A stretch of DNA of 64,000 nucleotides from an uncultured Nitrospirota bacterium (GCA_937139405.1 CAKZPV010000020.1:1-64000), one strand, 5' to 3'. Positions 16,349 through 35,100 are shown, numbered from the stretch's first letter. Program-made: numbers and translations. Notes: generated by a model not told the origin, from the sequence alone.

Positions 16349-16640
16349 ATGATCCTCATAGATTCATTGTTCCCGTTCACAAGTTGCGAGCAAATGTTCG
16401 TGTTGATATACCATCTAACCAAAAAGAAGGTGCCTAGGGAAAGAGGCGTGGTTTCTGGGCATGTTCGGCATCCTATGCTGTTTTGGCCCTGGCTTGAAGA
16501 TTAGGTACAATTGATCACTTGAGGAATCGAGCTCTTTGGAGTGCTTGCCGTCTTTTTGAAAGCTATTAGACATGTGTGGCGACTCGTGAGACTAGGACAA
16601 TCTTAAGGTCTTCCTTGGTTTCGATTTGAGTACGATAGAT

Positions 16641-17945
16641 ATGACGACTTCATCTAATTCCTGTGATGTAGTGGTTCTTGGAGGAGGGCCTGCTGGTTCT
16701 TCAATTGCTACTATCCTTTCAGAAAAGGGTTGGCATGTAGAAGTGTGGGAAAAAGAGCCTCATCCACGTTTTCATATTGGAGAGTCCTTGCTCCCTCACA
16801 CACTACCGTATTTGAAAAAGCTTGGTGTACTGGAAGAAGTCGAATCGATCGGGTTACAGAAATTTGGTGCAGAATTGGTCTCGCCCTATCATGATGAATC
16901 GGTGACATTGTTTTTTTCTGGAGCGATGGATAAATTCCACCCCTATGCTTATCAGGTGCGTCGATCTGAGTTTGACAACATCCTCTTACAAAATTGCAAA
17001 AAAAAAGGTGCCCAGGTTCATGAAGGGTTTGAGGCCAAGTCTGTGGATTTTTCTGACCCAAACCTGGCAGTCATTTATGGAAAAAATGCTCAAGGAATGA
17101 CCGTCAATCGACAGGCTCGGTATGTTGTCGATGCCACGGGGCGGCAGACATTTCTGGCGAACCAGTTGCATGCCAAACGGCGAAATCTCCATCACAATAG
17201 CGCTTCAGTCTTCGGTCATTTTGAGGGTGTCATACGACATTTAGGGAAGGACGAAGGTAATTTAACGATCTGTTGGTTTGAACATGGCTGGTTTTGGATT
17301 ATTCCCTTGCCTGATGGCGTAACGAGTGTCGGAATGGTGTGTTGGCCCTCGTATTTGAAATCTCGAAAAGGCAACCTTGAAGAATTTTTTTGGCAAACGG
17401 TCCATGGTTCACTGCCTATGCTTGATCGTATGAAGAAGGCCAAGGCAATCATGCCTATTGAGGCTACGGGGAATTATTCCTACCAATCTTCGGTCATGAT
17501 GGGATCGCAATTCATGCTGGTAGGCGATGCATTTGCGTTTATGGACCCTATTTTGTCCAGCGGAGTTCACTTGGCTTTACATAGTGGAATTCGTGGCGCT
17601 GAAGTGGTAGATGCCTATTTACAGGGTCATGCAGATGCCGAACAGAAGGCAAGAGATTTTGAAACAGCGGTGAAGCATGGTCTCGAAACCTATTCTTGGT
17701 TTATCTATCGGATTACTCAGCCTGCCTTTCGGAACCTAGCTATGGCTCCCAGAAATTTTTTTCGGATGCATGAGGCCATATCCTCTGTGCTGTCGGGGGA
17801 TGTGTTTGGCGCAACACCTGTAAAATTTCCCATATTCCTCTTTAAAGGTTTTTATTATCTCATGGCTATGCTTGACCTTAAAGCCAATCTCGTTCAATAT
17901 CGAAGAAGAAAACATGCGGTGGAAGGGGAGCCGGTGGCGTCATAA
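16641..17945 (+). CDS. flavin-dependent halogenase-like oxidoreductase (pigment locus, plus arm)
   Basis: 434 residues from the ATG at 16641; a TTG at 16626 would add five residues, and neither start has a clear ribosome site. The FAD-binding VVVLGGGPAGSS and the RFHIGES loop open the protein. The Lys of KFGAEL (K74) is at the place of the catalytic lysine of flavin halogenases, and the hallmark W-x-W-x-I-P is present (W217-P222, WFWIIP). FMDPILSSGVHLALHSG matches the C-terminal flavin motif. In the family, FADH2 and oxygen make HOCl/HOBr that is passed to the lysine. Sequence cannot exclude a simple monooxygenase. It precedes the chorismatase by 54 bases, suggesting action on a hydroxybenzoate or its polyene product. 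Confidence 0.88.
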   Translation: MTTSSNSCDVVVLGGGPAGSSIATILSEKGWHVEVWEKEPHPRFHIGESLLPHTLPYLKKLGVLEEVESIGLQKFGAELVSPYHDESVTLFFSGAMDKFHPYAYQVRRSEFDNILLQNCKKKGAQVHEGFEAKSVDFSDPNLAVIYGKNAQGMTVNRQARYVVDATGRQTFLANQLHAKRRNLHHNSASVFGHFEGVIRHLGKDEGNLTICWFEHGWFWIIPLPDGVTSVGMVCWPSYLKSRKGNLEEFFWQTVHGSLPMLDRMKKAKAIMPIEATGNYSYQSSVMMGSQFMLVGDAFAFMDPILSSGVHLALHSGIRGAEVVDAYLQGHADAEQKARDFETAVKHGLETYSWFIYRITQPAFRNLAMAPRNFFRMHEAISSVLSGDVFGATPVKFPIFLFKGFYYLMAMLDLKANLVQYRRRKHAVEGEPVAS

Positions 17946-17999
17946 CTACCAGAGCAAGAGAAACGTCAATTAGAAAAAAACGGTATCAGGTGTGGAGTC

Positions 18000-19109
18000 A
18001 TGGATAGCCAGTTCTCTCATAAAAAAAGTGGTGTAGGTTCTGCTCTTGGCGTACCTGTTGGGTGGGATATGTCATCGCCATTACCCTCATCGTCATGCCC
18101 TGATGGGTTAACACTCTTGTACGTCCAATCATCCAATCTTTCGCATGTATTAGAGTCAGAAGCATCTCATATACTAGCGATTATTGATCATGGGGGAGGA
18201 CATTCTGTTGGAGCGATGGGGAAAGGCCTCACCATTGCTGTGAATCTTCCACAATTGTCTCAACCACCTATAGTCGAAATTTGGAGAAGCGCAGCTCCGG
18301 TTTTGTGCGATCAGGTTCAGGATATTCGTCTGGCCTTTACTGATGAGGCCGTCTTTGGTTGTCTGGAGGTTCAGGAATCGTCTGGAGATGTGCTTGAGGA
18401 CTTGGCTCGCTCTGCATATGAAAAAATCTTTGAGTACTGCACGCAGTCAGGGTTTTCTCATCTGCTCCGTATGTGGAACTATTTCCCTAGTATTAATGCA
18501 GATCAAAGCGGGCTAGAACGCTATAGACGATTTTGTGTGGGGAGACATCAGGCTTTCTCGACATATAATAATAAATTTGCATCAATTCTTCCTGCAGCCA
18601 GTGCTGTCGGTACTCAGAATGGTCCATTCCAAGTACTGTTTTTGGCCGGCAAACAACCTGGAAAACCCTTTGAAAATCCACGACAAATCAGTGCATATGA
18701 GTATCCTTCTATCTATGGGCCCAAGAGTCCTTCTTTTGCTCGAGCGACTCTATATTCGACATCCACGAGGTGCCAATTATTTGTTGCCGGGACTGCCAGC
18801 ATTGTAGGCCATGCTACACGACATCAAGGTGATCCGGCTAAACAGACGCTGGAAACCTTATCAAACATTGATGCAGTTCTTAATCGAGTGTGTCACGAAA
18901 GACAGGAGGCATGGGGTACAAAACCTCCCGAAGGTCTTTTAAAAGTCTTTGTGCGTCATCAGAAAGATTTTCTGACTGTTCGTGAAGTGTTAGAGGATCA
19001 CAAATATGGGAAGAGCCCTATTTTGTATGTGTTGGGTGAGATGTGTCGCAAAGAATTGTTGCTAGAAATCGAAGGTATGTGGAGCCTGGTTTTTCTTTCA
19101 AATGAGTAA
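18000..19109 (+). CDS. chorismatase (FkbO/Hyg5/XanB2 family), hydroxybenzoate synthase
   Basis: A 369-residue cytosolic enzyme of the chorismatase family, which removes pyruvate from chorismate to give 3-hydroxybenzoate, 4-hydroxybenzoate or a dihydroxy acid. Sequence marks: RMWNYFPSINADQSG, LERYRRFCVGRHQAF, YEYPSIYGPKSPSFARA, FVAGTASIVGHATRHQGD and the C-terminal CRKELLLEIEG. C349 and E356 are seven residues apart, the same spacing I recall for the Cys and catalytic Glu of Hyg5, the 3-hydroxybenzoate-forming type. XanB2 of Xanthomonas feeds xanthomonadin in this way, and this gene sits at the edge of a polyene locus. ATG start at 18000; co-directional with the halogenase-like gene and the lipoprotein. 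Confidence 0.93.
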   Translation: MDSQFSHKKSGVGSALGVPVGWDMSSPLPSSSCPDGLTLLYVQSSNLSHVLESEASHILAIIDHGGGHSVGAMGKGLTIAVNLPQLSQPPIVEIWRSAAPVLCDQVQDIRLAFTDEAVFGCLEVQESSGDVLEDLARSAYEKIFEYCTQSGFSHLLRMWNYFPSINADQSGLERYRRFCVGRHQAFSTYNNKFASILPAASAVGTQNGPFQVLFLAGKQPGKPFENPRQISAYEYPSIYGPKSPSFARATLYSTSTRCQLFVAGTASIVGHATRHQGDPAKQTLETLSNIDAVLNRVCHERQEAWGTKPPEGLLKVFVRHQKDFLTVREVLEDHKYGKSPILYVLGEMCRKELLLEIEGMWSLVFLSNE

Positions 19110-19275
19110 TAACGACACTGGCATTCTACTGCCTGATTATTTAACATATTGGATTCTTGGGAAGATTTGCAGCTGTTCCCTAAATTCCCTAGTGTAAACA
19201 TAAATAGAAAAGTCATGAATGACGTCTAACTATTGTTGGTGTTGCTGACAAATTTACTAAGAGGAGGACTTTCCG

Positions 19276-19686
19276 ATGAAAAATCGAGCCTGGGCTCAGT
19301 TGATCTTTTTGGCGGTCGTTTTGGTATTGTTTGTGGGATGTCGAACCACGCCTGTTTTTAATGTCGAAAATGCAAATATTAATACAGTATCCGGTAAAGA
19401 ACCCACATTAGAGGATGTCACCAGAGCGATTGTGAGTGCATCGGGGAATTCAAATCCTCCGTGGAATATGCAGGTGGTCAAACCCGGTCATATTGTGGCT
19501 ACATTACATACTCGGAGTCACATGGCCCAAGTAGATATTCAATATACGTCTAAAGGATACAGTATTACACGTAAAGATTCGGCCGATCTGAAGTATGACC
19601 CAGAGAAAGGGACGATTCATCCGAGTTACAATAAATGGATCCAGCGTTTAGATAGCAATATTCGAATGAAAGTGAATATGCTCTAA
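19276..19686 (+). CDS. small lipoprotein of the pigment locus
   Basis: 136 residues with an ATG preceded by AAGAGGAGG. The lipobox is LFVGC, with C22 as the lipidated residue after a hydrophobic stretch. The mature part includes TLEDVTRAIVSASGNSNPPW and a beta-rich second half (HIVATLHTRSHMAQVDIQYT). I know similar small lipoproteins near aryl-polyene genes but no proven function; an outer-membrane role is likely from the lipidation. It is the last gene of the plus arm and ends 24 bases before the shared terminator. Confidence 0.85.
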   Translation: MKNRAWAQLIFLAVVLVLFVGCRTTPVFNVENANINTVSGKEPTLEDVTRAIVSASGNSNPPWNMQVVKPGHIVATLHTRSHMAQVDIQYTSKGYSITRKDSADLKYDPEKGTIHPSYNKWIQRLDSNIRMKVNML

Positions 19687-19709
19687 ACAGTTCTGTCAGA
19701 AATGTGAAG

Positions 19710-19746
19710 AAACCGTCCATTGGTAAAACCCAGTGGGCGGTTTTTA
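19710..19746. terminator. bidirectional terminator shared by the two pigment arms
   Basis: AAACCGTCCATTGG (19710-19723) pairs with CCAGTGGGCGGTTT (19730-19743), 14 pairs with two G-U, loop TAAAAC. A run of T follows on the plus strand and overlaps the stop codon of the minus-strand glycosyltransferase. It should end the lipoprotein transcript and, from the A-rich opposite side, also the long minus operon. Confidence 0.85.
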
Positions 19747-20547
19747 TTGGTGAGAAGTGCGGGATGAGGGCACGTCCTGAAGGTTGGTCCTTTGTTCGGC
19801 AAGTGGTTGACCAAATAGGGCATGATACAGATTTCGTGGCGCTAACCCTTCTGACAAGAGTTTCCCAGCAATCATCAGCGTAATACGGGCAATATCTACG
19901 ACAGGGCGGAAGTAACTTGGTCGCGGAGCTTGTCGAGGTTCTGATTCGATGGGAACCGCAAGGCTCCAATATCCCAGCCTCGCTCCTTCCACTAAAATCT
20001 CACTTTCAAAAACAAAGCTCCTCTCACGGTTTATTCGGATGTTTAGGTGCGTGATTAATGGCATGGGATAAATTCGAAACCCCGATTGGCTATCGGCTAT
20101 TGGATGTCCCGAAGCCCACGAGACCCAAAAATCAGCGACCCGATTGGCGAAAATGCGGTGCCATGTCTGGCGAGTCCATGGTCTTCTTCGGGCGCCAATG
20201 ATGATGCGATGAGGTGTGGCTTCGGCCTGCGTGATGAGTCGGGGAATATCTTCAGGGGAATGTTGCCCATCTCCATCCAACGCGATAACTGCAGTCATGC
20301 CTTGTTGTTCTGAGTATTGAAAGCCCTTCCATAAGCTAGCAGCTTTTCCGCAATTGGCAGTATTTTGAAGGACGGTGACTGGTAATTGCTGCAAGACTTG
20401 AGCTGTTCGATCTGTAGAGCCGTCATCAATGACAATCACATGCTTAAGATGTTTGAGGGCCTGCTCAGCTACGGCGTAGATTGTGCTCTCTTCATTAAAT
20501 GCCGGAATCACCACAGCATACTGCTGTTGTCTTTCTTCATCCATCAC
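19744..20547 (-). CDS. family 2 glycosyltransferase (pigment operon, last gene)
   Basis: 267 residues, GT-A fold. Motifs AVVIPAFNEE, VIDDGSTDRTA, NCGKAASLWKGF and the metal-binding DGDGQH place it with the dolichol-phosphate mannosyltransferase-like GT2 enzymes. SQSGFRIYP and ERSFVFESEILVEGAR complete the domain. There is no C-terminal membrane pair, so it is probably a peripheral enzyme. In aryl-polyene loci a glycosyltransferase attaches the polyene acid, or builds its lipid carrier head group. The start codon is GTG at 20547 (or ATG at 20544) and overlaps the ketoreductase stop, so it is translationally coupled. Confidence 0.92.
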   Translation of the reverse strand: MMDEERQQQYAVVIPAFNEESTIYAVAEQALKHLKHVIVIDDGSTDRTAQVLQQLPVTVLQNTANCGKAASLWKGFQYSEQQGMTAVIALDGDGQHSPEDIPRLITQAEATPHRIIIGARRRPWTRQTWHRIFANRVADFWVSWASGHPIADSQSGFRIYPMPLITHLNIRINRERSFVFESEILVEGARLGYWSLAVPIESEPRQAPRPSYFRPVVDIARITLMIAGKLLSEGLAPRNLYHALFGQPLAEQRTNLQDVPSSRTSHQ

Positions 20548-21263
20548 GCCATAGCTCCATTCACGCCAATGATTTGACCGGAAAGGTACCCAGCTTTCTC
20601 CGAAGCCAAAAATCCCACAACCGAGGATATTTCTTCGGGCTGACCTACACGTTTCATCGGTACCATAACCTCAATTTGTTCTACCGTAAATGTGTTCTCC
20701 GTGGATGGAGTGCGGATCAAGCCCGGAGCCACAACATTTACCGTAATGCCTCGAGAGGCGACTTCAGTCGCAAGCGATCGAGCGGCGCCATGAAGCCCAG
20801 CCTTTGCGGCGGAATAATTGGTCTGCCCCCGATGTCCAATCATTCCGGAGAGAGATGAAATGGCAATGATGCGTCCCCAGCGGGTACGGATCATAGGAAG
20901 CAATAGTGGTTGTGTGACATGAAAAAATCCATGAAGTGAGACTTCTATCACACGATGCCATTGTTGCATTGACATTCCAGCCATCGGTGCATCATCAAAA
21001 ATTCCTGCATTATGAACAATGACTTGGATCGGGCCGTTTTCGAGTAGCGTATTCATCGTGAGCTCTGTTGTTTCTGGATCTGTGAGATCGCAACAGATGG
21101 ATTCGGCTGAGCCACCTGTTTCAACAAGTTCCCTTGTGAGGTCATCGGACAATTTGTGGTTTCGGTGCCCATGAACAATGATGTGATAATCCATCGAAGC
21201 CAATTCACGACATATTGCAGCTCCGATTGGACTATTGCCACCTGTGATGAGTGCCCGCTTCAT
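20544..21263 (-). CDS. 3-ketoacyl-ACP reductase of aryl-polyene synthesis (ApeQ/FabG-like)
   Basis: 239 residues, short-chain dehydrogenase. NADP-binding TGGNSPIGAAI at the N-terminus, NAG at about residue 90, catalytic Ser in AISSLSG, and Y-x3-K in NYSAAKAG are all present. ITVNVVAPGLI and YLSGQIIGVNGA end the fold. It would reduce the 3-keto group after each chain extension before dehydration. The ATG overlaps the dehydratase stop (ATGA). Confidence 0.93.
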   Translation of the reverse strand: MKRALITGGNSPIGAAICRELASMDYHIIVHGHRNHKLSDDLTRELVETGGSAESICCDLTDPETTELTMNTLLENGPIQVIVHNAGIFDDAPMAGMSMQQWHRVIEVSLHGFFHVTQPLLLPMIRTRWGRIIAISSLSGMIGHRGQTNYSAAKAGLHGAARSLATEVASRGITVNVVAPGLIRTPSTENTFTVEQIEVMVPMKRVGQPEEISSVVGFLASEKAGYLSGQIIGVNGAMA

Positions 21264-21709
21264 GTGGTGGCTTTTCGCCCTTTAATAAAAATTGAGGCGC
21301 GTCCTTGAAGAAGCATGACCTGGTTGGCTTTCATTGAAAAAGAGTACATGAAGCTCATGTGTTGTTCTAGTAATAAGCTAGCCTTAATGGTCAAGTCTTC
21401 TGCAAACTGCTGAAACGTACGACTGTTAATCTTGAGATCACGCACAGCCCCGAGATAACCCAATGATGCATTGTGCTCAGAAATGTCCGTTGTAAGCCCT
21501 ACATGCACGGCCATGGCCTGAGCTGCGTATTCTAGCCCTGCGATCATTTCCAGCCTACCCTGCCGTCGTAAAGGGTTGTCATGATTTCGGTGTGTAGATG
21601 TGAGACAGGTGATCGATGAAACATCCCAACATTCAACCGATGAGAGAAGGCACATATCGTCGCCATGCGGCAAAAATTTTGAGAGCTCTAGTCTAGAAAA
21701 GGCTGACAT
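21260..21709 (-). CDS. hot-dog 3-hydroxyacyl-ACP dehydratase (ApeP-like)
   Basis: 149 residues. LPHGDDMCLLSSV near residue 12 and MIAGLEYAAQAMAVHVG near residue 55 match the dehydratases of aryl-polyene clusters (ApeP type), distantly related to FabZ. It would remove water to give the trans double bond; together with the reductase and no enoyl reductase in the locus, the double bonds stay, giving conjugation. Its start overlaps the end of the half-ketosynthase gene by 22 bases. Confidence 0.88.
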   Translation of the reverse strand: MSAFSRLELSKFLPHGDDMCLLSSVECWDVSSITCLTSTHRNHDNPLRRQGRLEMIAGLEYAAQAMAVHVGLTTDISEHNASLGYLGAVRDLKINSRTFQQFAEDLTIKASLLLEQHMSFMYSFSMKANQVMLLQGRASIFIKGRKATT

Positions 21710-22506
21710 GGTTTATGGTCAATGCGAAGTTGAAGATTATCTAAAAAATCAAAATAGACGCAGCAAGCCAAGTTGGTGGCAATCGTTCGTAACAAAGGAA
21801 AACTTCGCGCAGCGGGGTTACCAGACCGCAATTCCTCAAAGGAGGATTGAGACATTGCTGTGGATGCATGGTCCATCCGATCTGGTAAAAGGGTGATGTC
21901 TAGCATCGACACACTATTTGGTGCAGCCTGTTTACTCAGGACGAAAGCCATAGCGAAGGGCGCAATGATTGGTCGGGTCTCATGCAACGGAAAAGGTGCA
22001 GGAGTATCATATGCCACGAATAAGACAGCTTCTTCCTGGTTGGCAGATAGCAATGTGGCTGCCTCAAGCAACCCTGCCGCAAATGATGAATCATAACATG
22101 CTAGGCTTGTCGAAGGACGTTGTGAGCCTGACGCAATACTCCAGTAACCAGCAGCTGCATTGTGGACAGACTGATGAAATAAGGTTGGAGAAACCATGGG
22201 CGGGTCAGAGTCTAGCGATTGACAAATTTTATGGAGAATACCTGTTTCCCCACCGGACGAGGCAAACACAGAGGCCATTTTTTTCGGATCAAACTGACTC
22301 TGTTGCACCGCTTCGTGTGCCACGTGCAAGGACCAACGAACGACATCACTACTTCGTCGCCGTTCGTTGGCGGGTAGTATCGAAGGCATGGGATCTGGTG
22401 TCACGGAGTCATCATAAGAACATTGTTCCTTGAATAGTCTTCTGCACGATTCCCAATTTTCAATCCCTGGTCCAAGCACTCCGACGCCATGTACAAAGAT
22501 TTTCAT
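21688..22506 (-). CDS. beta-ketoacyl synthase-like chain-length factor (ApeC-like)
   Basis: 272 residues from the ATG at 22506, which overlaps the ketosynthase stop as TGATG; an in-frame ATG nine codons earlier lies inside the upstream gene and is less likely. The protein is a short ketosynthase relative: VHGVGVLGPG at the start, SVHNAAAGYWSIA in the middle and LACYDSSFAAGLLEA where a full ketosynthase has its active-site Cys. It ends after about 270 residues, without the two catalytic histidine regions. By analogy with ApeC it pairs with the full ketosynthase and helps set chain length. Confidence 0.88.
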   Translation of the reverse strand: MKIFVHGVGVLGPGIENWESCRRLFKEQCSYDDSVTPDPMPSILPANERRRSSDVVRWSLHVAHEAVQQSQFDPKKMASVFASSGGETGILHKICQSLDSDPPMVSPTLFHQSVHNAAAGYWSIASGSQRPSTSLACYDSSFAAGLLEAATLLSANQEEAVLFVAYDTPAPFPLHETRPIIAPFAMAFVLSKQAAPNSVSMLDITLLPDRMDHASTAMSQSSFEELRSGNPAARSFPLLRTIATNLACCVYFDFLDNLQLRIDHKPCQPFLD

Positions 22507-23702
22507 CAGCGTCTTCCTAGAATTAAGGTGCAATTGTTTCCACCAAATCCAAAAAAATTATTCATGATGGAGCGAATTGGTCGTTCCTGGTTTTCGAGTA
22601 GGACCTGACTGGAGAAGCTGGGATCAATCGTATTGGTGTTCAGACAGCCGGGAAGAAATCCATATTGGAGACAAAGGTCTCCTAAGGCTACTGCGACTGC
22701 TCCAGCAGCGCCGAGCGTATGTCCTGTCCATCCTTTGGTTGAACTACAAGGAGTTTCAGCACGAAACATGCTAGCAATGGCGCGGTCTTCGGTTTGGTCA
22801 TTTGCCACTGTCGCTGTTCCATGCATATGAATATAGTCGATGTCTGATATGGAGAGGGCGCTACTCGCCAATGACGCCTGCATGGCTAGCGTCGCACCTT
22901 GACCTGTGGGATGAGGATGGGACATATGGTAGGCATCGCTACTTTCCCCATAACCTAAAAGCCTGGTCTCTGGCTGGTTCTCATTGGTAGACGCATTTTC
23001 CAAAAAGATAAAGGCGGCGGCTTCTCCTATGGTCAAGCCTTCTCGGTTAACATCGCATGGACGACAGGGGCCTGGAGCTGTTAATTGCAAGGCTGAAAAC
23101 CCATGCAGTGTGGTGAGGCAGAGACTATCTACTCCGCCGACAACGACGGCCTCGCAGAGGCCAGCTTCGATATATCTAGATGCTGTTGCAAAGACTTTCG
23201 CACTTGAGGAACAGGCTGTGGATATGACTGCAGCTGGACCAGTAAGTTGTAAATACTCACGAACAAAATGGGCAACGGAAAACGTGTCTTGCGTATACCG
23301 GCCTCGTGGCACAAAGCTTGCGGGAAGCTTTCCTGTGACCGCATCTTTTTGTTGATACGCCAGTTCAGTTTCTAAGATTCCAGCAGTGCTTGTACCAATG
23401 AGTACACCGATTCTATGGGATCCGTATTGTCGGCGCGCTTTGGCAATGTAGCTTTCAAAACCATCCTGCTGCAGGCCAAGTAACGCCAGTTGATTATTTC
23501 GGCAGTGAAAACGGCTGAGGCTAGATGGAAAGGACACATCTTCAAGTCCCTCTACCATTCCCATATACGTCGGTAGGTTGCTTCCCTGGAAATGACAGGG
23601 TTGCAGACCTGATCGCTGTTCTCGTAGGGCTCTGATATGTTCCGATTTCCCACGTCCAATTGCTGTGACGAGAGTGGAATGTCCGAACAAAAGAGGAATC
23701 AT
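22506..23702 (-). CDS. beta-ketoacyl-ACP synthase (ApeO/ApeR-like)
   Basis: 398 residues from the ATG at 23702 (a TTG two codons earlier is possible). A full ketosynthase: active-site Cys in STACSSSAKVF, first His in HMHGTATVANDQTED, second His in GWTGHTLGAAGAV, and the closing NNFFGFGGNNCTLIL. It condenses malonyl-ACP with the growing aryl-polyene chain. The gene begins four to ten bases after the flavoprotein gene and its stop overlaps the chain-length-factor start, which supports a heterodimer. Confidence 0.93.
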   Translation of the reverse strand: MIPLLFGHSTLVTAIGRGKSEHIRALREQRSGLQPCHFQGSNLPTYMGMVEGLEDVSFPSSLSRFHCRNNQLALLGLQQDGFESYIAKARRQYGSHRIGVLIGTSTAGILETELAYQQKDAVTGKLPASFVPRGRYTQDTFSVAHFVREYLQLTGPAAVISTACSSSAKVFATASRYIEAGLCEAVVVGGVDSLCLTTLHGFSALQLTAPGPCRPCDVNREGLTIGEAAAFIFLENASTNENQPETRLLGYGESSDAYHMSHPHPTGQGATLAMQASLASSALSISDIDYIHMHGTATVANDQTEDRAIASMFRAETPCSSTKGWTGHTLGAAGAVAVALGDLCLQYGFLPGCLNTNTIDPSFSSQVLLENQERPIRSIMNNFFGFGGNNCTLILGRR

Positions 23703-23711
23703 TGGCAATCG

Positions 23712-25277
23712 TTAGGCTGAGGGCTGTAGAGTAAGAAAATGTGAGAGTGGAAGTGGATATTCCATTTTATTGGTCCCAAGGAGTTGGTTGGCTTGTTCTT
23801 GGGAGCGATTGAAAATCTCATGAAGTCGGGTAAAGAATTGACGAGGTGTTTGAGGCTGTCCCACTTCTTCCAACCATTCGACTCCTTCCACTGCGTTAGT
23901 AAAATTTCCAAGGTTCCCTCGAAAAAATGTCTTGGTTTCACGAAGGTGTCGTTCAACTTTTTGAAAGAGTTGAGAGAAATTCGATAGCGCATTGAGCACT
24001 GGCTGTTGTTCTTGAATCTTCTGGGCGAGAAATTCTTCGTTGAGATGAAGATCCTGCATAAATTCGGAAAGCCAAATGTGATAATAGGATGGAAAATCCA
24101 ACTGCCATTTTAATTTGAGGAGTTCATAACTGCCAAAGAGTGAATAGAGATTTCTGTAGAGACGCATACTGGCCTCATAGCGAAAGTGCATGTAGTCGTT
24201 TGAACGATTGACGAGATTTTGCAGGTATTGTGCCGATGTGCCTTCTTCTTCATAGCGAATCATATTCGTTAGGAGGTCATTTTCCAACGCGATAAAGTCT
24301 GACCCAGGACTGTAAAATGGGTCAGTAAAGGCTGCAGCTTCACCTGTCAACCCCCATCGATTTTGGCTGAAATATTGTCGTGTCCCATAGGTCAGATGGT
24401 GGTAACTGCCAATATCTAGAAGGTCGGCCTCCTGGAGCAATGACCATGCTGCATGGTGTTGTCGGAGGAACTCTAAAAACCCATCGGTTTTCCGAAGGCG
24501 ATCTTGCCAGCTGCCAGGACGCTCCATGACGATACCGACGCTCACGATATTGTGTCCAAGGGGAATAAACCAAATCCAATATCCTGGATAACAAAAGTGT
24601 GTTGTCGATGAGTGCCGACTTGTGCCATGTACGCGTTGTCGAAACGTCTCCGGACCGACTTCGTCAAGGTTGGTCACATTTCTGAATCGTCCCCATACTG
24701 CAGCCAATGTGTGATGTGATTTAGGAGTCCTCAAGTTTTCTTGCCGTGCAAGGACTGAAGACCGGCCACTTGCATCGATGAGCCATCGGCTCTGAACATT
24801 CCAGTGTTTGCTAGTGGTCCTCACGGAAAACTGATGAGGAGATGAATCAGAACTGAGCCGCAGGTCCGAGACTCGGCTCCCCAAATGAAGTTCGATGCCA
24901 TCTTCTTGATTCATTTGCTGGAGATCGGTCTCTAAGCGTGAACGATCCAATTGAAAACTTTTGTGAAAAGGTTGTTCGATTCCACCGATTTCACTCATAT
25001 CAATCAAGGGAGCTTGACGATTTTCTTGGTCAAAGAAAAATCGCAGGCCATTTTTGACGATGTGATGTTTAGTGAGATAGTTCCCAAGGCCAAGCCGTCG
25101 AATCAGATAATTTCCTGTAACCTCAACCGTGGATTCTCCAACTTTAAATGAAGTGGATTCACGTTTTTCAAACATCCCAACAGTGAGGTGCGGAAATGTC
25201 TGTCGTAGTTGCCTAGCCATGAGGTTCCCAGCAAGTCCTCCCCCGAGGATGGCGATATCAAGGTGATGCCTGGGCAT
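23712..25277 (-). CDS. second flavin halogenase-like monooxygenase (pigment operon)
   Basis: 521 residues. N-terminal FAD motif IAILGGGLAGNLMARQ, then SFKVGEST. K75 in VKNGLRFFF lies where halogenases have the catalytic lysine, and W-x-W-x-I-P is present as WIWFIP (234-239). FTDPFYSPGSDF is the second flavin motif. The C-terminal about 150 residues are helical and beyond the core. Related enzymes occur in xanthomonadin and flexirubin loci as halogenases or aryl hydroxylases. The gene lies six bases after the exporter gene. It differs clearly from the plus-arm flavoprotein, so two aromatic modifications are possible. Confidence 0.88.
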   Translation of the reverse strand: MPRHHLDIAILGGGLAGNLMARQLRQTFPHLTVGMFEKRESTSFKVGESTVEVTGNYLIRRLGLGNYLTKHHIVKNGLRFFFDQENRQAPLIDMSEIGGIEQPFHKSFQLDRSRLETDLQQMNQEDGIELHLGSRVSDLRLSSDSSPHQFSVRTTSKHWNVQSRWLIDASGRSSVLARQENLRTPKSHHTLAAVWGRFRNVTNLDEVGPETFRQRVHGTSRHSSTTHFCYPGYWIWFIPLGHNIVSVGIVMERPGSWQDRLRKTDGFLEFLRQHHAAWSLLQEADLLDIGSYHHLTYGTRQYFSQNRWGLTGEAAAFTDPFYSPGSDFIALENDLLTNMIRYEEEGTSAQYLQNLVNRSNDYMHFRYEASMRLYRNLYSLFGSYELLKLKWQLDFPSYYHIWLSEFMQDLHLNEEFLAQKIQEQQPVLNALSNFSQLFQKVERHLRETKTFFRGNLGNFTNAVEGVEWLEEVGQPQTPRQFFTRLHEIFNRSQEQANQLLGTNKMEYPLPLSHFLTLQPSA

Positions 25278-25283
25278 AGTCGC

Positions 25284-27626
25284 TTACATGACTTGTTGAC
25301 GTTTGAAGGGTGAGCAGATGGCCGCAAAGATAAAACAGATGAGGGATCCAAAGAATGCTGTTAAGCCAATTCCATGAAGGACAGGAGTCTGTGAACAGGC
25401 TAATAATCCAAACACGGTGATCGTGGTGAGACTACAGACGATGATAGCTGAAATTGTCTGTTGTCGTTCAGCCGTCGTCTTATGGGGGCGTTGAAAAAAC
25501 AAGGTGTAATCTAACCCGATACCAAATACTAAGAGTAGAGCTGCCAGATGAAACAAGGAGAGACGTTCACCAAGAGCATGTAGAATAGCTAAGTCGAGCA
25601 TAATCGAGCCTGCGATAGGAAGCAAGACAGCAAGCATCTTGGGAATGGATCGTAGTCCGATACCCAGAATAAGGATCAGAATCCCCATTCCGATTGCCAG
25701 ATATGTAGTGACTTCTTGTCTATAGATCGTGACCATATCATTGGATTCAGTTTTCAGGTCCAAGTAATGCACGGCTTTGAGGGATTCGGTCCGAATAGCC
25801 TGCTGGATGGCCTGTCGATTAGTCACGTCACGCAAAAGAATTGTTCCCACCCAGTGATCTTGATGAGAATAGAGCAACCCACGGATTTTCGTACCTATTA
25901 TTGTGTTCTTAACAGATTGAAGGTCTAAGGGCTTCAAATGCTTAGACTCGGCCATACTCCGGAGAAAGGGTTCAAACAGGTCTGGTTTGAATGGTAGATC
26001 ACGTTGAGCGTGACTCAAATGTTTTTTTAGAGTCGCGTGATCGGGTAAGGCTTTCTGTCTCATGCCTTGTGTTTGAATGCTAGGCAGGTAATCTGCGGCC
26101 ATTTCATACCCGGTCATATGTTCTTGATCGACTAACTGATCTAGGGTTCCTTTGAGAGCCTCACTTTGCTCCAGAACACGTTGTGCATCTGGTGCCACGA
26201 TGACCATCATGTCACGGAGAGCGGGTGCACCTAATTCCTGCCGTAACCATATATCACGGTCTCGGAGATTCTGGGGGACAGGGCTAAGATTAGCAATATC
26301 CATCTCCCAAAACGGTTTATCGGACCAAGCTAGATAGGTGAGAGACAACACCATGCTGATAGGAACTATTATCATCATTCTAGAATTTTGATGATGAAAT
26401 GGGAGCCAGGTGGACCATGGAAGGGGCTTTCTTATCTTCGAAGGAACAAGTACTGGAAGAATCCACCGAGTGGCCGTAGCAGCACCTAATAGTCCGGCAA
26501 TGGCGAACAGCCCCAATTGTGACAGGCCCGGGAAGCCCGAGAACAACATGGCTCCATAGCCGATTGCCGTAGTGATGGCACCTAATCGAATTGTCGGCCA
26601 GATTTGCATGATGGCCAACTTTGGCGATCGATCCGATTCCAAATGCGCGCAAGCATGGAGAGGATAATCGATAGCTACGCCAATTAAAGTTGCACCGAAT
26701 GCTAAGGTCATACCATGAATGAACCCAAACCCTAGATAGGCTGTTATCGCGGCAACAAGTAGTCCTGTCACGAGTGGGACCAAGGCCAGGAAAAGTATCG
26801 TGAATGATCGAAACGTAACGAAAAGCAGGGTAAGGACAAATCCTCCGCCGAGCAGAGAGAGCCATTGGGCGTCGTCTTTAATCCCTGCTCTCGATTGAAC
26901 GGCGAAGACTGATGGACCGGAGAGGATCAACTCAAGCGATGCGAGTGATGATTGAGGTGAGAATGAGGTGAGAATGTTTTCGAAATTGGTCGTTAAAAAG
27001 TCTTGGATGGCTTCTTGCCCATCCAGGTCGTAGCCTGATACGGCAGTTTCTGCCACAAGTAAGGCGACCTGTTCATCTGAGGAAAACCAAACCCCATGGG
27101 TCGTCTTGAGTGTGTTTTTGGATTTTAGTTGCTGGAGGATGTTCTGAAATGAACCAGTCGGATCTTCAGGAATTTGTTTTTTAAAAAATGAAGGAAGAGG
27201 ATTGACCATGTCTTGGAGTCGATTCTTCAAAATTTGACGTAATCGATGTGTGGTGAATTGATCTGGTGAAACGGTTGGGCTGAAAAGATATCGGTATCGA
27301 TACAAGAGGTCCTGATCTAAGTTGAGAGCTGTCTGTTCTCCGTTATAGACATGAAGAAACTGACTCTGGGCACGCATGGCTTCTGCTAATTTCTTGCTCG
27401 TTTTAGCTAAGAATGAGGGTTCAGCGCCTTGTAGCCCGAGTAAAAGAATTCGAGATGTTGGCCCAGACTGCAGTTGGTCAACGAATAATTGTTGCGAGAA
27501 TGATCCGGAAGACGGCAGCAAGAGCGGAAGCTCTGTTTGAATCGGAATGGAAGTTATGGCAAAGGCTGAAGCAAGGCCGATACTTACGAACCAGAGTAGC
27601 CAGGGCATAGCACGAATGTTGATCAC
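25284..27626 (-). CDS. MMPL/RND-family exporter of the pigment operon
   Basis: 780 residues with about twelve membrane helices in two six-helix halves, each led by a large periplasmic loop. The first helix (WLLWFVSIGLASAFAITS) leads into loop one, and LLGGGFVLTLLFVTFRSFTILFLAL begins the central bundle split in two runs; FGATLIGVAIDYPLHA and LVFGIGLDYTLFF are the paired sterol-sensing-like helix motifs with the proton-relay Asp. It is the predicted inner-membrane exporter of aryl-polyene lipids. The start is GTG at 27626, overlapping the LolA-like stop (GTGA). Confidence 0.92.
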   Translation of the reverse strand: MINIRAMPWLLWFVSIGLASAFAITSIPIQTELPLLLPSSGSFSQQLFVDQLQSGPTSRILLLGLQGAEPSFLAKTSKKLAEAMRAQSQFLHVYNGEQTALNLDQDLLYRYRYLFSPTVSPDQFTTHRLRQILKNRLQDMVNPLPSFFKKQIPEDPTGSFQNILQQLKSKNTLKTTHGVWFSSDEQVALLVAETAVSGYDLDGQEAIQDFLTTNFENILTSFSPQSSLASLELILSGPSVFAVQSRAGIKDDAQWLSLLGGGFVLTLLFVTFRSFTILFLALVPLVTGLLVAAITAYLGFGFIHGMTLAFGATLIGVAIDYPLHACAHLESDRSPKLAIMQIWPTIRLGAITTAIGYGAMLFSGFPGLSQLGLFAIAGLLGAATATRWILPVLVPSKIRKPLPWSTWLPFHHQNSRMMIIVPISMVLSLTYLAWSDKPFWEMDIANLSPVPQNLRDRDIWLRQELGAPALRDMMVIVAPDAQRVLEQSEALKGTLDQLVDQEHMTGYEMAADYLPSIQTQGMRQKALPDHATLKKHLSHAQRDLPFKPDLFEPFLRSMAESKHLKPLDLQSVKNTIIGTKIRGLLYSHQDHWVGTILLRDVTNRQAIQQAIRTESLKAVHYLDLKTESNDMVTIYRQEVTTYLAIGMGILILILGIGLRSIPKMLAVLLPIAGSIMLDLAILHALGERLSLFHLAALLLVFGIGLDYTLFFQRPHKTTAERQQTISAIIVCSLTTITVFGLLACSQTPVLHGIGLTAFFGSLICFIFAAICSPFKRQQVM

Positions 27627-28276
27627 GGTACCTGTGAGTCTAATTGGAGTTCCGATCGGTCGCCGTTGGTTTCATGGATAGAAATGGTGCGCAGGTGGAC
27701 ATCATCTCCAGTCAAGCGAATACAGCTTACGCCATCTTCCTCATGATGTATTTTGGGAGAAAGGTTGAGCTCCCATCTGTCAGATGTGCCTGTCATTGAA
27801 ACATGAAAGAATCGGCGTAATGTTTGTTCGTCCCCGTTAAAGAGTGATCGTAATCCCTCAATGAATGCTGAGAGAGCGGGATAGTCTTGAAGGGAAAATG
27901 TTCGAGAAATCTCTCGAGAAGGATTATCGTAAAGCAGATTATCGCCCTCGGCGATAAAGGATTCTTTTATAGGGAGCAGTACATGCTTTTCCAAACGAGA
28001 GGGAGGATGAAAGACCAGCCGTCCTTCTTTGTGCGAAGGTGTCGTGAGCATGCCTGAATAATACGTTTCATGAAACGTTCGTTCATGAATCGTTGATTGT
28101 CCAAGATTTTCAATAACGCTACTCAAGCCCAAGGATTCTTTTTGAAACGGAATGCTCTGAGCCACGTTTGGGTCAGGCTCACATGCATGGGAATATGAAA
28201 ATATCCCTAACATGAAAAGGCCAACCCATGTCAGACGACAGAAGATGGGTCTATTTATCCGATTCCCAAAAGTCAT
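27623..28276 (-). CDS. LolA-like periplasmic carrier of the pigment operon
   Basis: 217 residues from the ATG at 28276; an earlier in-frame ATG (28333) would put a long overlap on the acyltransferase gene and hide the signal peptide. RLTWVGLFMLGIFSYSHA is a signal sequence. FHETYYSGMLTTPSHKEGRLVF and RLEKHVLLPIKESFIAEGDNLL follow the beta-strand pattern of outer-membrane lipoprotein carriers (LolA fold). It should ferry the aryl-polyene lipid across the periplasm after the MMPL exporter, whose gene overlaps its end by four bases. Confidence 0.87.
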   Translation of the reverse strand: MTFGNRINRPIFCRLTWVGLFMLGIFSYSHACEPDPNVAQSIPFQKESLGLSSVIENLGQSTIHERTFHETYYSGMLTTPSHKEGRLVFHPPSRLEKHVLLPIKESFIAEGDNLLYDNPSREISRTFSLQDYPALSAFIEGLRSLFNGDEQTLRRFFHVSMTGTSDRWELNLSPKIHHEEDGVSCIRLTGDDVHLRTISIHETNGDRSELQLDSQVP

Positions 28277-29147
28277 AAAAGTTAAACCAATTGGATGGAG
28301 CCAATTTGCAGTAGGCTTCCAGTCGATGCACATAGCGCTCTGTCCATTCTTGCAGACCTTGCGCGCGGTTTTCTCTTGGGATGTTTACGGTTTCTGCGAA
28401 CAATTCAAAATGAATGTCATATCGCCCACCCCCGCGATACAGACAAAAAAATAACACGACCGGCACCTTGAGGATACTGGCGAGTAACATCGGGCCTGAC
28501 GGAAACTGGGCCGTGTGCCCAAAAAATTGGCAAGGTACAGCCTTTTCATGTTTAAGCGGACGATCACCAAGCATGCCCACCAATCCTCCCTCATCCAGGC
28601 ACTCCTTTGCACGTAACATCGTCTCGGGTTCTCCGACTGGAATAATACTATCTAACATAGTAGGGTCAAGGTTCCCCAGCACTTCGTTGAGAATCGGTGC
28701 ATTCTCTTGATGCATGAGTAACTTGATGGGGATAGCTCTGCTTATTAATCCAGTAGCTCGAAGGATTTCGAAGCTTCCTAAGTGGGAACCGAGCAAAAGA
28801 CATCCTTGCTGTCGGTCGACACGGTCAAGTAGTGGTTTCGCATCACGAATAGTCAGGTCGAATTCATGATATCGACCAGCTAAAAGAAAGGCCCGGTCTA
28901 ACAAGGTTGAGGCAAAGGCATGATACTGGCAAAAGAGATCGGTGAGTGTCACCGGGCGTTGCAACACGCGGCCTAAGAACGTCTTGATGCCTCGGCTTGC
29001 CGTCCAGGAAAACAATACGTAATAGATACAGATCGGATAGAGCAGCGCTCTCGCGGCCTTCCGTCCCAAGCGAAGTGCCACCCACAGCATGCATTCGTAA
29101 GCCCAGCGATGACCTCGTTCACGTTGCGCCAGCCAACGTTTACTCAT
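28251..29147 (-). CDS. lysophospholipid-type acyltransferase (HtrB/LpxL-like)
   Basis: 298 residues. An N-terminal hydrophobic, amphipathic anchor (about 33-52) precedes the acyltransferase motif H-x4-E in GSHLGSFEILRA. MLGDRPLKHEKAVPCQFFG and FPSGPMLLASILKVPVVL match late lipid A acyltransferases. In aryl-polyene operons such an enzyme joins the polyene or a fatty chain to the glycolipid carrier. Start ATG overlaps the stop of the hot-dog dehydratase gene (ATGA), and its own 3' end overlaps the LolA-like gene by 26 bases. Confidence 0.92.
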   Translation of the reverse strand: MSKRWLAQRERGHRWAYECMLWVALRLGRKAARALLYPICIYYVLFSWTASRGIKTFLGRVLQRPVTLTDLFCQYHAFASTLLDRAFLLAGRYHEFDLTIRDAKPLLDRVDRQQGCLLLGSHLGSFEILRATGLISRAIPIKLLMHQENAPILNEVLGNLDPTMLDSIIPVGEPETMLRAKECLDEGGLVGMLGDRPLKHEKAVPCQFFGHTAQFPSGPMLLASILKVPVVLFFCLYRGGGRYDIHFELFAETVNIPRENRAQGLQEWTERYVHRLEAYCKLAPSNWFNFYDFWESDK

Positions 29148-29470
29148 GACGGTGAGGAAGGAGTTTGGCTGTCCATTTGAAAAATGAATTCACCCGAGGC
29201 AATGAGTCTTGAACCGACTTGACAGGAAAAAGTGACGACATGATTCGAAAGAATATCGAAATTGAGCTGGAGTGATTCGTTTGGACGAAGCGGAGAGTGA
29301 AATTTGACCGAAGGCACTTTGGCTAACATGGGTGATCCGTTGAGTGATTCACCAATGAGCTCGAGCACTTCTCCTAGAATAACGACGCCTGGCACAATAG
29401 GGTTCCCGGGGAAGTGTCCGGTGAGTGAAGGATGCGAAGAGTCAATATGTAAATTTTTTTCAACCATCAT
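29144..29470 (-). CDS. FabA/FabZ-like 3-hydroxyacyl-ACP dehydratase (ApeI-like)
   Basis: 108 residues, single hot-dog domain. SHPSLTGHFPGNPIVPGVVIL is very close to the signature of ApeI dehydratases, with the active His in GHFPG. It is the second dehydratase of the operon; in characterised aryl-polyene systems ApeI and ApeP together do the dehydrations. Two consecutive ATG codons (29470, 29467) open the gene, which overlaps the ligase gene by about ten bases. Confidence 0.92.
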   Translation of the reverse strand: MMVEKNLHIDSSHPSLTGHFPGNPIVPGVVILGEVLELIGESLNGSPMLAKVPSVKFHSPLRPNESLQLNFDILSNHVVTFSCQVGSRLIASGEFIFQMDSQTPSSPS

Positions 29471-30902
29471 CGACTAATCTTCGGTCACGTGTCGTAGCTA
29501 AATCATGTTGTGTTCGTAATAATGTTTCTATGTCTTCTTGCATCAATTTCCCTGTGGGATTACGAGGAAGTGCTTTGACCAGATACAGCGGGCGTGGTAA
29601 GAACACGCGTGAAATTTTATGACGAAGTGCGGCAAAGATGGCTTCAGAGGTTTTTTCGGGTGCGACGACGAAAGCTATTAAACGTGTGACCGACTCTTCT
29701 TTTTCTTCTGGCATATAAAACGTACCGTCCACAACTCCTTCAATTGAAAGAAGTTGAACATTCAATTCGTCCAAAGACCCGCGATGTCCTCCAATATTGA
29801 TCAAATGGCTAGGACGTCCTTCCAGGCTGAATTGCTGTGGATTGGCAGACTGAATTGTATCAGGAATGGGTACAGGGTTGGAAAAATATGGTGTACTGAC
29901 TGCATAGCCTTCAGTGTGAGAAACCAAAGTTAGTTCAGGTAGCAATGTCCAACTGTCTTCTTGAACTGGACGACGTGTTGCGATGGTGCCTGCCTCGGCG
30001 AAACCATAAATTTCTATCATAGTCGTACGAAACAAGGTTTCCACCTGTTTCGCTAACTGTTGGGGGAGGGGGGCAGTAGCGGAAAGAGTACATGCCACTT
30101 CTGGAAACTTTGATTCAGTCATGACGCAGGATCGGAGATGTATGGGTGTGGAGACTAAAATTCGGGGTGAACATTGTGCATGTAAAACGGATACGATGTC
30201 TTCTGGAAAAAAGGGACGTTCTGAATATACGCACCATCCCTTTTGAAGGGGCAACATGATAGAGGTTTCCAACCCGTACATATGCTGATGTGGAACGGTT
30301 GCAACAACTGTTACTGGACTTTTTGCGGAAATTGGCAGTCGTTCCGCAGTTTTTTTTGCGATCTGGACCATCGATCCCCATGATTTTTGACTTGGGCGTG
30401 GAGTGCCAGTCGTACCAGATGTAAAGGCAATGGCGGCAATGTGTGTATTGGAAAATTGAGGATTTGCCATAGGTGCTTGGTCTGAATTTATATCTAAATC
30501 GAGTGTGAGACCTTCCACTCCTTCGATTCGCTCATGGCCATCGGTTAGGTAGTAACAATCGGAGTATTGGCTTAGGAGTTGTTGAAGAATATCTGGTGAT
30601 CGGTTTGGTGGTAGCAGAGTTGTTTGGTTTCGACACAGAGCTGCAGCAAATCCAACCAAAAAAGAATAGCGGTCTTGGCACAAATTAATCACGTATGGTT
30701 TGTGCGGCAATTGATCGCGAATAGTCCTGACATGAGTTAACAACTTCTGTGTTGATATAGTTTTACCTTGATGCCAGGCGACAATGCTGTCAGGCTTGTA
30801 AGGACCGAGAAATGGGGAATGTGTCATAACGTTTGGTTTGAGGCAGGATTCATGCAGGTAATGAGATCCATGGTTTGGTGGTGGCGATTCCCAAAAATCC
30901 AT
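29460..30902 (-). CDS. AMP-dependent aryl/acyl-ACP ligase (ApeH-like)
   Basis: 480 residues from the ATG at 30902. A TTG at 30938 and an ATG at 30827 are alternatives; the conserved domain begins only near the latter, so the true start is uncertain. The P-loop FTSGTTGTPRPSQKSW, a YGFAEAGTIATR adenylation motif, GRPSHLINIGG and the C-terminal LPRNPTGKL with its catalytic Lys define an adenylate-forming enzyme. It should activate the hydroxybenzoate made by the chorismatase and load it on the ACP. It is the second gene of the operon, 69 bases after the ACP. Confidence 0.92.
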   Translation of the reverse strand: MDFWESPPPNHGSHYLHESCLKPNVMTHSPFLGPYKPDSIVAWHQGKTISTQKLLTHVRTIRDQLPHKPYVINLCQDRYSFLVGFAAALCRNQTTLLPPNRSPDILQQLLSQYSDCYYLTDGHERIEGVEGLTLDLDINSDQAPMANPQFSNTHIAAIAFTSGTTGTPRPSQKSWGSMVQIAKKTAERLPISAKSPVTVVATVPHQHMYGLETSIMLPLQKGWCVYSERPFFPEDIVSVLHAQCSPRILVSTPIHLRSCVMTESKFPEVACTLSATAPLPQQLAKQVETLFRTTMIEIYGFAEAGTIATRRPVQEDSWTLLPELTLVSHTEGYAVSTPYFSNPVPIPDTIQSANPQQFSLEGRPSHLINIGGHRGSLDELNVQLLSIEGVVDGTFYMPEEKEESVTRLIAFVVAPEKTSEAIFAALRHKISRVFLPRPLYLVKALPRNPTGKLMQEDIETLLRTQHDLATTRDRRLVDDG

Positions 30903-30971
30903 TTCACCACGAGATGCCGGACGTGGGAGGTGTTTCAATGATGATTGAGGAAGGTATTCACGATGCTTTTG

Positions 30972-31253
30972 TTATTTCGTGCGGTTCTTCTGTATAGCCT
31001 CACAGAGGGACCGAAGAGAAGAAAAAATGGTCGTGTTATCCGGGTCATCGGACCGTAATTTGTATCCGTAGTTTTGATGAATCACCAGGGCAATCTCAAG
31101 AGCATCAATGGAGTCCAACCCTAAACCTTCTCCAAATAACGGGTCTAACGGTGGGATTTTTGCCGGTTCCACCTTCAAGTTTAATGTGGTCACGAGGAGT
31201 TGGGCAATTTCAGTTTCAAAAGGTGCCTGGTTAGACAACGACCATTCCTCCAT
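30972..31253 (-). CDS. acyl carrier protein of the aryl-polyene operon
   Basis: 93 residues from the ATG at 31253. GLGLDSIDALEIALVI carries the phosphopantetheine Ser in DSID. The longer frame from 31394 is rejected because a good promoter lies within it (31290-31318) and its extra 47 residues are basic and unlike any ACP. It is acidic and helical as expected. It is the only ACP of the locus, whereas well-known clusters usually have two. First gene of the minus operon. Confidence 0.93.
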   Translation of the reverse strand: MEEWSLSNQAPFETEIAQLLVTTLNLKVEPAKIPPLDPLFGEGLGLDSIDALEIALVIHQNYGYKLRSDDPDNTTIFSSLRSLCEAIQKNRTK

Positions 31254-31289
31254 TGATAAGATTTTGTTAATAACTTTGGACGAATACCG

Positions 31290-31318
31290 ATTGTCCTGTT
31301 TGAATTCAGAGATGTCAA
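31290..31318 (-). promoter_or_regulatory. promoter of the aryl-polyene operon
   Basis: On the minus strand a perfect -35 TTGACA (31318-31313) and a -10 GACAAT (31295-31290; four of six) are exactly 17 bases apart, about 37 bases upstream of the ACP start codon. Confidence 0.6.
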
Positions 31319-31450
31319 TATAACTTCGTTTAATGAAGAAAAATCGTGAAAATCTTTCTTTTGAAACAATCAATTTTTGTAGGTAGAATACCAAAGTCCA
31401 GTATTTGAGAATTTAAGCAAAAGGCATTTTGGACATCTGCTGAAGACTCC

Positions 31451-33430: not shown

Positions 33431-34060
33431 ATGAAACGATCACATGTAAAATTTTTGCTGAGCATCGCGATGAGCCTGATAGTCATTTGTGCGTTTTCAG
33501 AAAATGTACGGGCAAAAGGGGTTGATTCTGGAGAATCAAATTCAGTCGTCATTTCCGCTGGCGGAGGGATCTTTTATCCGTTTCAAGGAAAATCAGGATT
33601 TAACGGTGTCATACAGGCGGCAGGAAAAATCTCTTCCCAGGAACGACTGGGTGTGGAGCTGGAATTTCGGAAGTATGAAACGGAACTCTTTAATGCCAAG
33701 AATATCGATACAAAATCGTATATTGTCCGAGGGATCGGACAGTATTTTTTTCGTCCCCATGGTATCTCTCCTTATATTGGCCTTGGTATCAACTTTGCTG
33801 TCAATACTTTTGACGAAGATGAAATTGAAAGAAAGAGATCTTCAGTCAATGTAAAACATGGTTGGGGTTTTGGATATGGAATCATGGGTTTATTGGGAGT
33901 TGAGGTGCCAGTTGGTGGGGGGCTGGCTTTTTTTGGAGAAGGTCGAGTGAGCGGTGACTTTCAGCTCACGCGTTACAAGAAACGATCAGGAAAGAATAAA
34001 CTCAGAGTTGAAAATTTGAGTGGGTTGACTGGAATGGGTGGCATTCGGATGCGATTTTGA
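33431..34060 (+). CDS. outer-membrane beta-barrel protein
   Basis: 209 residues. Signal peptide (KFLLSIAMSLIVICAFSENVRA), then alternating beta strands (VVISAGGGIFYPFQG, LGVELEFRKYETEL, SYIVRGIGQYFFR, GISPYIGLGINFAVN) ending in the aromatic-last GGIRMRF typical for barrel assembly. Likely an 8-stranded OmpA/OmpW-like barrel; function unknown. TGGAGGGAGA upstream fixes the ATG. Confidence 0.87.
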   Translation: MKRSHVKFLLSIAMSLIVICAFSENVRAKGVDSGESNSVVISAGGGIFYPFQGKSGFNGVIQAAGKISSQERLGVELEFRKYETELFNAKNIDTKSYIVRGIGQYFFRPHGISPYIGLGINFAVNTFDEDEIERKRSSVNVKHGWGFGYGIMGLLGVEVPVGGGLAFFGEGRVSGDFQLTRYKKRSGKNKLRVENLSGLTGMGGIRMRF

Positions 34061-34921: not shown

Positions 34922-35100
34922 GGATGGAATAACCAGCAATTAACTATGAATAGTTAGAATGGCATATTTTACCATGAGGGTATCATGATGAGATAGCCTA
35001 CTAAGAAAATTCTAAGCGCCAAAAACATGATGCGTGCATCAGCTGAGACAACATGGATATGTTCTGAGGGGGATATGGGGAGGGGTTTTCTTAGGTATCA

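Follow-up and report, generated by a model that had tools for sequence, protein, structure and literature searches.

A predicted xanthomonadin-type aryl-polyene locus with its own chorismatase in an uncultured Nitrospirota bacterium

Among the closest described systems are the arc genes of Azoarcus sp. BH72 (the arcuflavin loci, arcA-X), which have been described as xanthomonadin-like, and whose authors considered that sequence alone cannot settle whether the product is 3-hydroxybenzoate (3-HBA) or 3-/4-HBA (PMC3949708). About 90% of the Lysobacter pigment depends on the chorismatase homologue, and 3-HBA restores pigment; Lysobacter has no halogenase, and this goes with an unbrominated pigment (PMC3691225). 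The residues Gly173, Gly240, Cys327 and Glu334 have been reported for the enzymes that form 3-HBA (PMC7170507). Aryl-polyene clusters were recorded by antiSMASH in 2022 in Nitrospira inopinata, N. lenta and N. japonica (PMC9765116), and in 2026 in another Nitrospiraceae genome (PMC13055281). The occurrence of aryl-polyene clusters in this phylum is therefore not new, and the novelty that the original prediction attached to a pigment outside the best-known hosts falls away.

The window analysed here is a stretch of 64,000 nucleotides from an uncultured Nitrospirota bacterium. A contig of the same assembly encodes a protein of which 1022 residues match subunit A of nitrite oxidoreductase (1336 bits; a binning error is possible), so the host, a member of the Nitrospirales, is very probably a nitrite oxidizer, a possibility that the original prediction had raised. 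By ORF calls, the window contains a 15-gene aryl-polyene locus (16626-31394) arranged in two convergent arms, with three genes on the plus strand and 12 on the minus (Table 1). Read from 31394 down to 19744, the minus arm encodes an acyl carrier protein (ACP), ligase, dehydratase, acyltransferase, LolA-like carrier, MMPL exporter and the flavoprotein FAD2, followed by a ketosynthase (KS), a chain-length-factor-like subunit (CLF), a second dehydratase, a ketoreductase and a glycosyltransferase. The plus arm encodes a second flavoprotein, HAL1, the chorismatase and a lipoprotein. Adjacent genes overlap, or lie no more than a few dozen bases apart. The conserved locus extends further, to 34939, where genes for a radical SAM protein, an outer-membrane protein and a methyltransferase follow. 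The 15 ORFs and two arms of the original prediction are thus where it put them, at 16641-31253, but that interval stops about 3.6 kb short and leaves the methyltransferase out.

Most of the ORFs have significant matches to Pfam families and curated models, and family, profile or structure matches bear out all of the pathway genes first proposed (chorismatase, ligase, ACP, KS, CLF, ketoreductase, dehydratases, acyltransferase, glycosyltransferase, LolA and MMPL). No enoyl reductase was found within the locus, again as predicted. Two genes without a Pfam match were named by other means: the second dehydratase (21260-21709) and the ApeA-like lipoprotein (19276-19686). In the former, PH and EYxxQ are invariant among 24 homologues; its predicted structure, with a mean pLDDT of 36.9, is too poor for use. 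NF006618 and NF006617, the models matched by the KS and the ACP, are families that collect aryl-polyene KSs and ACPs, respectively. The ORF at 23699-23992, which lies in another frame and overlaps the end of FAD2, was left out of the gene count. Promoter and terminator scans of the locus gave results near chance level.

Table 1. Genes of the pigment locus and of the conserved extension beside it, in window coordinates
Gene product	Coordinates	Strand	Evidence
HAL1, flavin-dependent halogenase-like (ChlB4/PltA type), arcA counterpart	16626..17945	+	PF04820 82.6 bits; ChlB4 7fco 199 bits
Chorismatase, FkbO/Hyg5/XanB2 family	18000..19109	+	PF21168 128 bits; TIGR04444 229 bits, under cut-off 325
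ApeA-like lipoprotein, lipobox FVGC	19276..19686	+	33% over 124 aa, E 2e-18, to E. coli ApeA-position ORF
Family 2 glycosyltransferase	19744..20547	-	PF00535 87.6 bits
Ketoreductase, FabG type, YSAAK	20544..21263	-	NF004200 324 bits, cut-off 273; flexirubin FlxB model 243 bits, under cut-off
Second dehydratase, ApeP-like	21260..21709	-	ApeP-like proteins in profile-profile comparison, E 2e-15, probability 98.5%
Chain-length-factor-like subunit, truncated	21688..22533	-	PF13723 110 bits; 281 aa, N-terminal KS domain only
Ketosynthase	22506..23708	-	NF006618 499 bits, cut-off 407; TACSSS, HGTAT, STKGW, GHTLGA
FAD2, second halogenase-like flavoprotein	23712..25277	-	CmlS 3i3l 78 bits, PltA 50 bits; motifs
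MMPL/RND exporter	25284..27626	-	PF03176 54 bits
LolA-like periplasmic carrier, true start probably internal to ORF	27623..28333	-	PF19574 49 bits
LpxL-type acyltransferase	28251..29147	-	PF03279 36.6 bits
First dehydratase, FabA/ApeI-like, GHFPGNPIVPG	29144..29470	-	PF07977 29 bits, over cut-off; PF22818 ApeI-like 23.7 bits, under cut-off
Aryl acyl-ACP ligase, AMP-forming	29460..30938	-	PF00501 68.6 bits; coumarate-/hydroxybenzoate-ligase models under cut-off
Acyl carrier protein, GLGLDSIDAL	30972..31394	-	NF006617 115 bits, cut-off 70
Radical SAM protein, island gene, pigment role uncertain	31591..33333	+	PF04055
Outer-membrane beta-barrel-like protein, island gene	33431..34060	+	PF13505 25 bits, under cut-off; 74% homologue in G008 island
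UbiE-like methyltransferase	34157..34939	-	PF01209 112 bits

By every available sequence test, this is an aryl-polyene locus. The best solved relatives of both condensing subunits are the aryl-polyene KS:CLF heterodimers 7f28 and 6qsp (7f28_B and 6qsp_A for the KS; the small subunits 7f28_A and 6qsp_B for the CLF). A KS placed outside the aryl-polyene group had been named beforehand as grounds for refuting the assignment, and the tree gave no such grounds. In a maximum-likelihood tree of 64 KSs, drawn without those of Xanthomonas, Lysobacter, flexirubin clusters or Bacteroidota, the window KS falls inside the aryl-polyene/xanthomonadin-like clade with support of 100/100, and the FabF-type KSs of the host and the second (ApeR-like) KSs are set apart, also at 100/100. 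Within the clade, resolution is weak among the branches toward Azospirillum, Caballeronia and Roseomonas, and several deep forks are weak or long-branched, and so we claim membership of the clade and not an exact position within it. Around this KS stand the other components of an aryl-polyene pathway: truncated CLF, ACP, aryl ligase, ketoreductase, two dehydratases, MMPL and LolA-like export genes, glycosyltransferase and acyltransferase, with no enoyl reductase at the locus. Gene order is kept across many genomes, and pN/pS, measured against one congener, is 0.15-0.41 in all genes tested, indicating purifying selection; these are not, therefore, chance ORFs. Synteny, selection and the KS tree together led us to reject both chance ORFs and recruited fatty-acid enzymes as explanations.

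The subtype is suggested by the genes that accompany this core. Chorismatase, a halogenase-like protein and a methyltransferase, taken at their predicted activities, supply all the marks of xanthomonadins (genes for a 3-HBA starter, for halogenation and for methylation), and point to a pigment of that subtype, presumably with a 3-hydroxybenzoate starter and a decorated head group. Homologues of the methyltransferase (37-52%) adjoin the clusters of Roseomonas, Caballeronia and Azospirillum, as well as five of the seven further chorismatase-bearing Nitrospirota clusters that were examined at length. With the KS tree, this gene content and the gene order of xanthomonadin-like clusters support the xanthomonadin-type assignment proposed at the outset.

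The chorismatase aligns with Hyg5 and FkbO. In Hyg5 numbering, G240, C327 and the catalytic E334 all have their counterparts in it, three of the four residues of Hyg5-type (CH-II) enzymes; at position 173 all of the Nitrospirota copies aligned have Ala in place of Gly, and we assign the enzyme to no chorismatase subtype. The equivalents of G240 and C327 make it unlike FkbO, and we predict that it yields 3-hydroxybenzoate, and perhaps the 4-isomer also. A search for UbiC in the host and 20 relatives found none; accordingly, no ubiquinone-type route to 4-HBA is known in the host, and the chorismatase is the only source of hydroxybenzoate found. Of 396 Nitrospirota genomes, 42 have a pigment KS and 354 do not; strong matches to the chorismatase (E below 1e-9) occur in 31 of the 42 and in 4 of the 354 (Fisher p 1.6e-32, a value that overstates the evidence because the genomes share ancestry). 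Within the genus of the window, all seven cluster-bearing genomes have the chorismatase and none of the 14 cluster-free genomes does. In the genera coded g6, g20 and g27, the cluster takes a second form, without the HAL1-chorismatase-lipoprotein arm, and one g20 genome has a chorismatase at another place. In one locus of this chorismatase-free subtype (L064, 14185-16695), the glycosyltransferase ORF runs on into a second glycosyltransferase-like domain. Elsewhere, the pigment cluster at locus L068 (G405:C4) is degraded and its chorismatase interrupted; another contig of that genome carries a further pigment KS together with a chorismatase that is uninterrupted.

HAL1 and FAD2 both carry halogenase motifs, in agreement with the two halogenase-like flavoproteins first reported. 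Both keep GxGxxG, WxWxIP, F..P..S.G and the lysine (in HAL1: GxGxxG, WFWIIP, FMDPILSSG and the Lys of IGLQKFG), motifs that by themselves are no proof of halogenation. Homologues of HAL1 occur in other xanthomonadin-like clusters. FAD2 is the more distant of the two (78 bits to CmlS, compared with 199 bits for HAL1 to ChlB4), and is peculiar to its family: it occurs in 9/9 CLF-bearing members and in 0/15 cluster-free members covered by both searches, always, where readable, between exporter and KS. It was seen in no other cluster examined outside the family, where its best matches, in a plasmid collection, are 30-33% identical. Four congeners have two copies in tandem, and a fifth has two on separate contigs (duplicated loci: L009, 6644-9991; L012, 2815-6199; L011; L010). 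The second copy in G005 and G006 is without WxWxIP, and a stop interrupts one of the G005 copies, perhaps through an error of assembly. In the window FAD2 is single; gaps of 6 bases to the exporter gene and 3 bases to the KS gene contain no trace of another copy. Its pN/pS of 0.17 against a congener is among the lowest in the locus, which argues that it is in use; its predicted structure, with a mean pLDDT of 32.5, is likewise too poor for use.

The locus behaves as a presence/absence island. In four cluster-free congeners (G010, G268, G208 and G003), the genes that flank it in the window (15497-16348 and 35101-37008) lie about 2 kb apart, and gene order beyond both flanks is conserved (L153-L156). 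The interval from about 16.6 to 34.9 kb (roughly 18 kb, including the radical SAM protein, outer-membrane protein and methyltransferase) is therefore all-or-none. The 2 kb at the empty site encodes another outer-membrane protein and a TRL-like protein, and no direct repeats were found at the island ends. The island radical SAM family is present in 3/3 cluster-bearing and 0/7 cluster-free genomes tested; two paralogues of the protein are found elsewhere in the genome (G000:C50, C32). The flanking Lnb_N/DUF7840/DUF7843 protein (35101-37008) persists in the cluster-free congeners, and also flanks pigment clusters of other families (L055, L057, L061, L063 and L067). A CrtI-like desaturase (under the family cut-off, and split in G010) occurs in 5 of the 14 cluster-free congeners (G003, G208, G415, G418 and G010) and in none of the seven cluster-bearing ones. 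This mutual exclusion within the genus is not significant (p = 0.12), and the distribution gives a hint of carotenoid/aryl-polyene replacement. We advance one composite idea tentatively, as possible and on balance doubtful: that FAD2 acts as a further halogenase peculiar to the family, or else tailors the ring or chain oxidatively, leading to a polyhalogenated or otherwise new aryl polyene, and that the island comes and goes as a whole and may take the place of carotenoid-type protection in the genus.

What the locus makes, we consider with high confidence, is a membrane-bound aryl polyene of the xanthomonadin type, presumably yellow. The chemical steps, halogenation, location and function set out here are our reading of its genes. 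The chorismatase would convert chorismate to 3-hydroxybenzoate (possibly also 4-), and the ligase would load the hydroxybenzoate on the ACP. KS:CLF would add malonyl units, from each of which the ketoreductase and two dehydratases would form a double bond; for want of an enoyl reductase, the chain should stay conjugated. Decoration of the aromatic head may fall to the flavin halogenase, or halogenases, and to the UbiE-like methyltransferase. A lipid or glycolipid would then be joined to the acid by the acyltransferase and glycosyltransferase, and the MMPL exporter, LolA-like carrier and lipoprotein would take the product to the outer membrane, where the pigment might protect against oxidants and light.

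Three other readings share some of this evidence. A hybrid of the flexirubin or arcuflavin kind, with an ester bond between polyene and dialkylresorcinol, is unlikely: the arc genes have the same order and the same chorismatase-halogenase pair, and the ketoreductase and LolA weakly match flexirubin models, but no darA/darB or ammonia lyase gene occurs among the ORFs of the locus. We think it very unlikely that this is an ordinary cluster of the E. coli/Vibrio type, with a 4-hydroxybenzoate starter and no halogenation. The core genes are common to both, as is the ApeA-like lipoprotein with the E. coli type; yet the KS is 48-52% identical to those of the xanthomonadin-like clusters of Azospirillum, Caballeronia, Roseomonas and Variovorax, and 38-41% to those of the E. 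coli, Pseudoalteromonas and Cupriavidus type. The second KS, thioesterase and DUF3261 gene are absent from the locus, and the chorismatase, halogenase-like gene and methyltransferase are present in a host in which UbiC was not found. Most improbable is a non-pigment type II product or modified lipid, with KS and dehydratases recruited from fatty-acid synthesis. The LpxL-type acyltransferase, radical SAM protein and UbiE-like methyltransferase are lipid-type genes such as it would call for; against it, the KS is split from FabF with full support in the tree, the CLF is truncated as in aryl polyenes, and the entire gene order is common to pigment clusters.

The new observations are the all-or-none island, the family-restricted FAD2, and the chorismatase that tracks the pigment KS in Nitrospirota. 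The literature searched holds no record of gene-level anatomy in this lineage, of the FAD2 component or of the switchable site. Nitrite oxidizers grow slowly and are central to the nitrogen cycle; a putative polyene shield with a starter from a committed chorismatase, present or absent among species at a single site, offers a natural test of the role of the pigment, and FAD2 is a concrete candidate enzyme for new halogenation chemistry.

The locus can be set beside several known systems, among them the aryl-polyene cluster of E. coli. The two share KS:CLF, ACP, ligase, two dehydratases, ketoreductase, RND exporter, LolA, glycosyltransferase/acyltransferase and the ApeA lipoprotein, but the E. 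coli cluster has a 4-HBA starter via UbiC, a second KS, a thioesterase and DUF3261, and no halogenase or chorismatase is listed for it (PMC8253772). The published Nitrospira clusters belong to the same class and come from the same order of bacteria; the present locus differs in its family, FAD2 and island structure, and the text of that paper gives no gene-level description (PMC9765116). The plasmid cluster of Azospirillum ramasamyi (NZ_CP029832.1) has the order ACP-ligase-dehydratase-acyltransferase-LolA-MMPL ... KS-CLF-dehydratase-ketoreductase, a family 2 glycosyltransferase, a HAL1 homologue (52%) and methyltransferases. It differs in having a deacetylase and a methyltransferase in the slot of FAD2, and no chorismatase in the stretch; the window lipoprotein has no match to the small ORF near that cluster. 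The xanthomonadin clusters of Xanthomonas and Lysobacter enzymogenes, likened here via published descriptions, come from another phylum and differ in that the window has a second halogenase-like protein. Both have a KS with truncated CLF, two dehydratases, ketoreductase, ACP, acyltransferase and a chorismatase homologue (XanB2/ORF5), and Xanthomonas has a halogenase as well (PMC3691225). The arc genes of Azoarcus are divided between two loci, where here there is one, and include a polysaccharide deacetylase, second acyltransferase, antiporter and MltA-interacting protein not seen in the window. The window locus, for its part, is without dialkylresorcinol genes, and it alone has FAD2 between exporter and KS. 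The likeness is otherwise extensive: the order ACP, ligase, dehydratase, acyltransferase, LolA, exporter is identical, as is the order KS, N-terminal KS (CLF), dehydratase, ketoreductase; the halogenase adjoins a XanB2-type chorismatase (arcA-arcB), and a glycosyltransferase and methyltransferase are present in both (PMC3949708).
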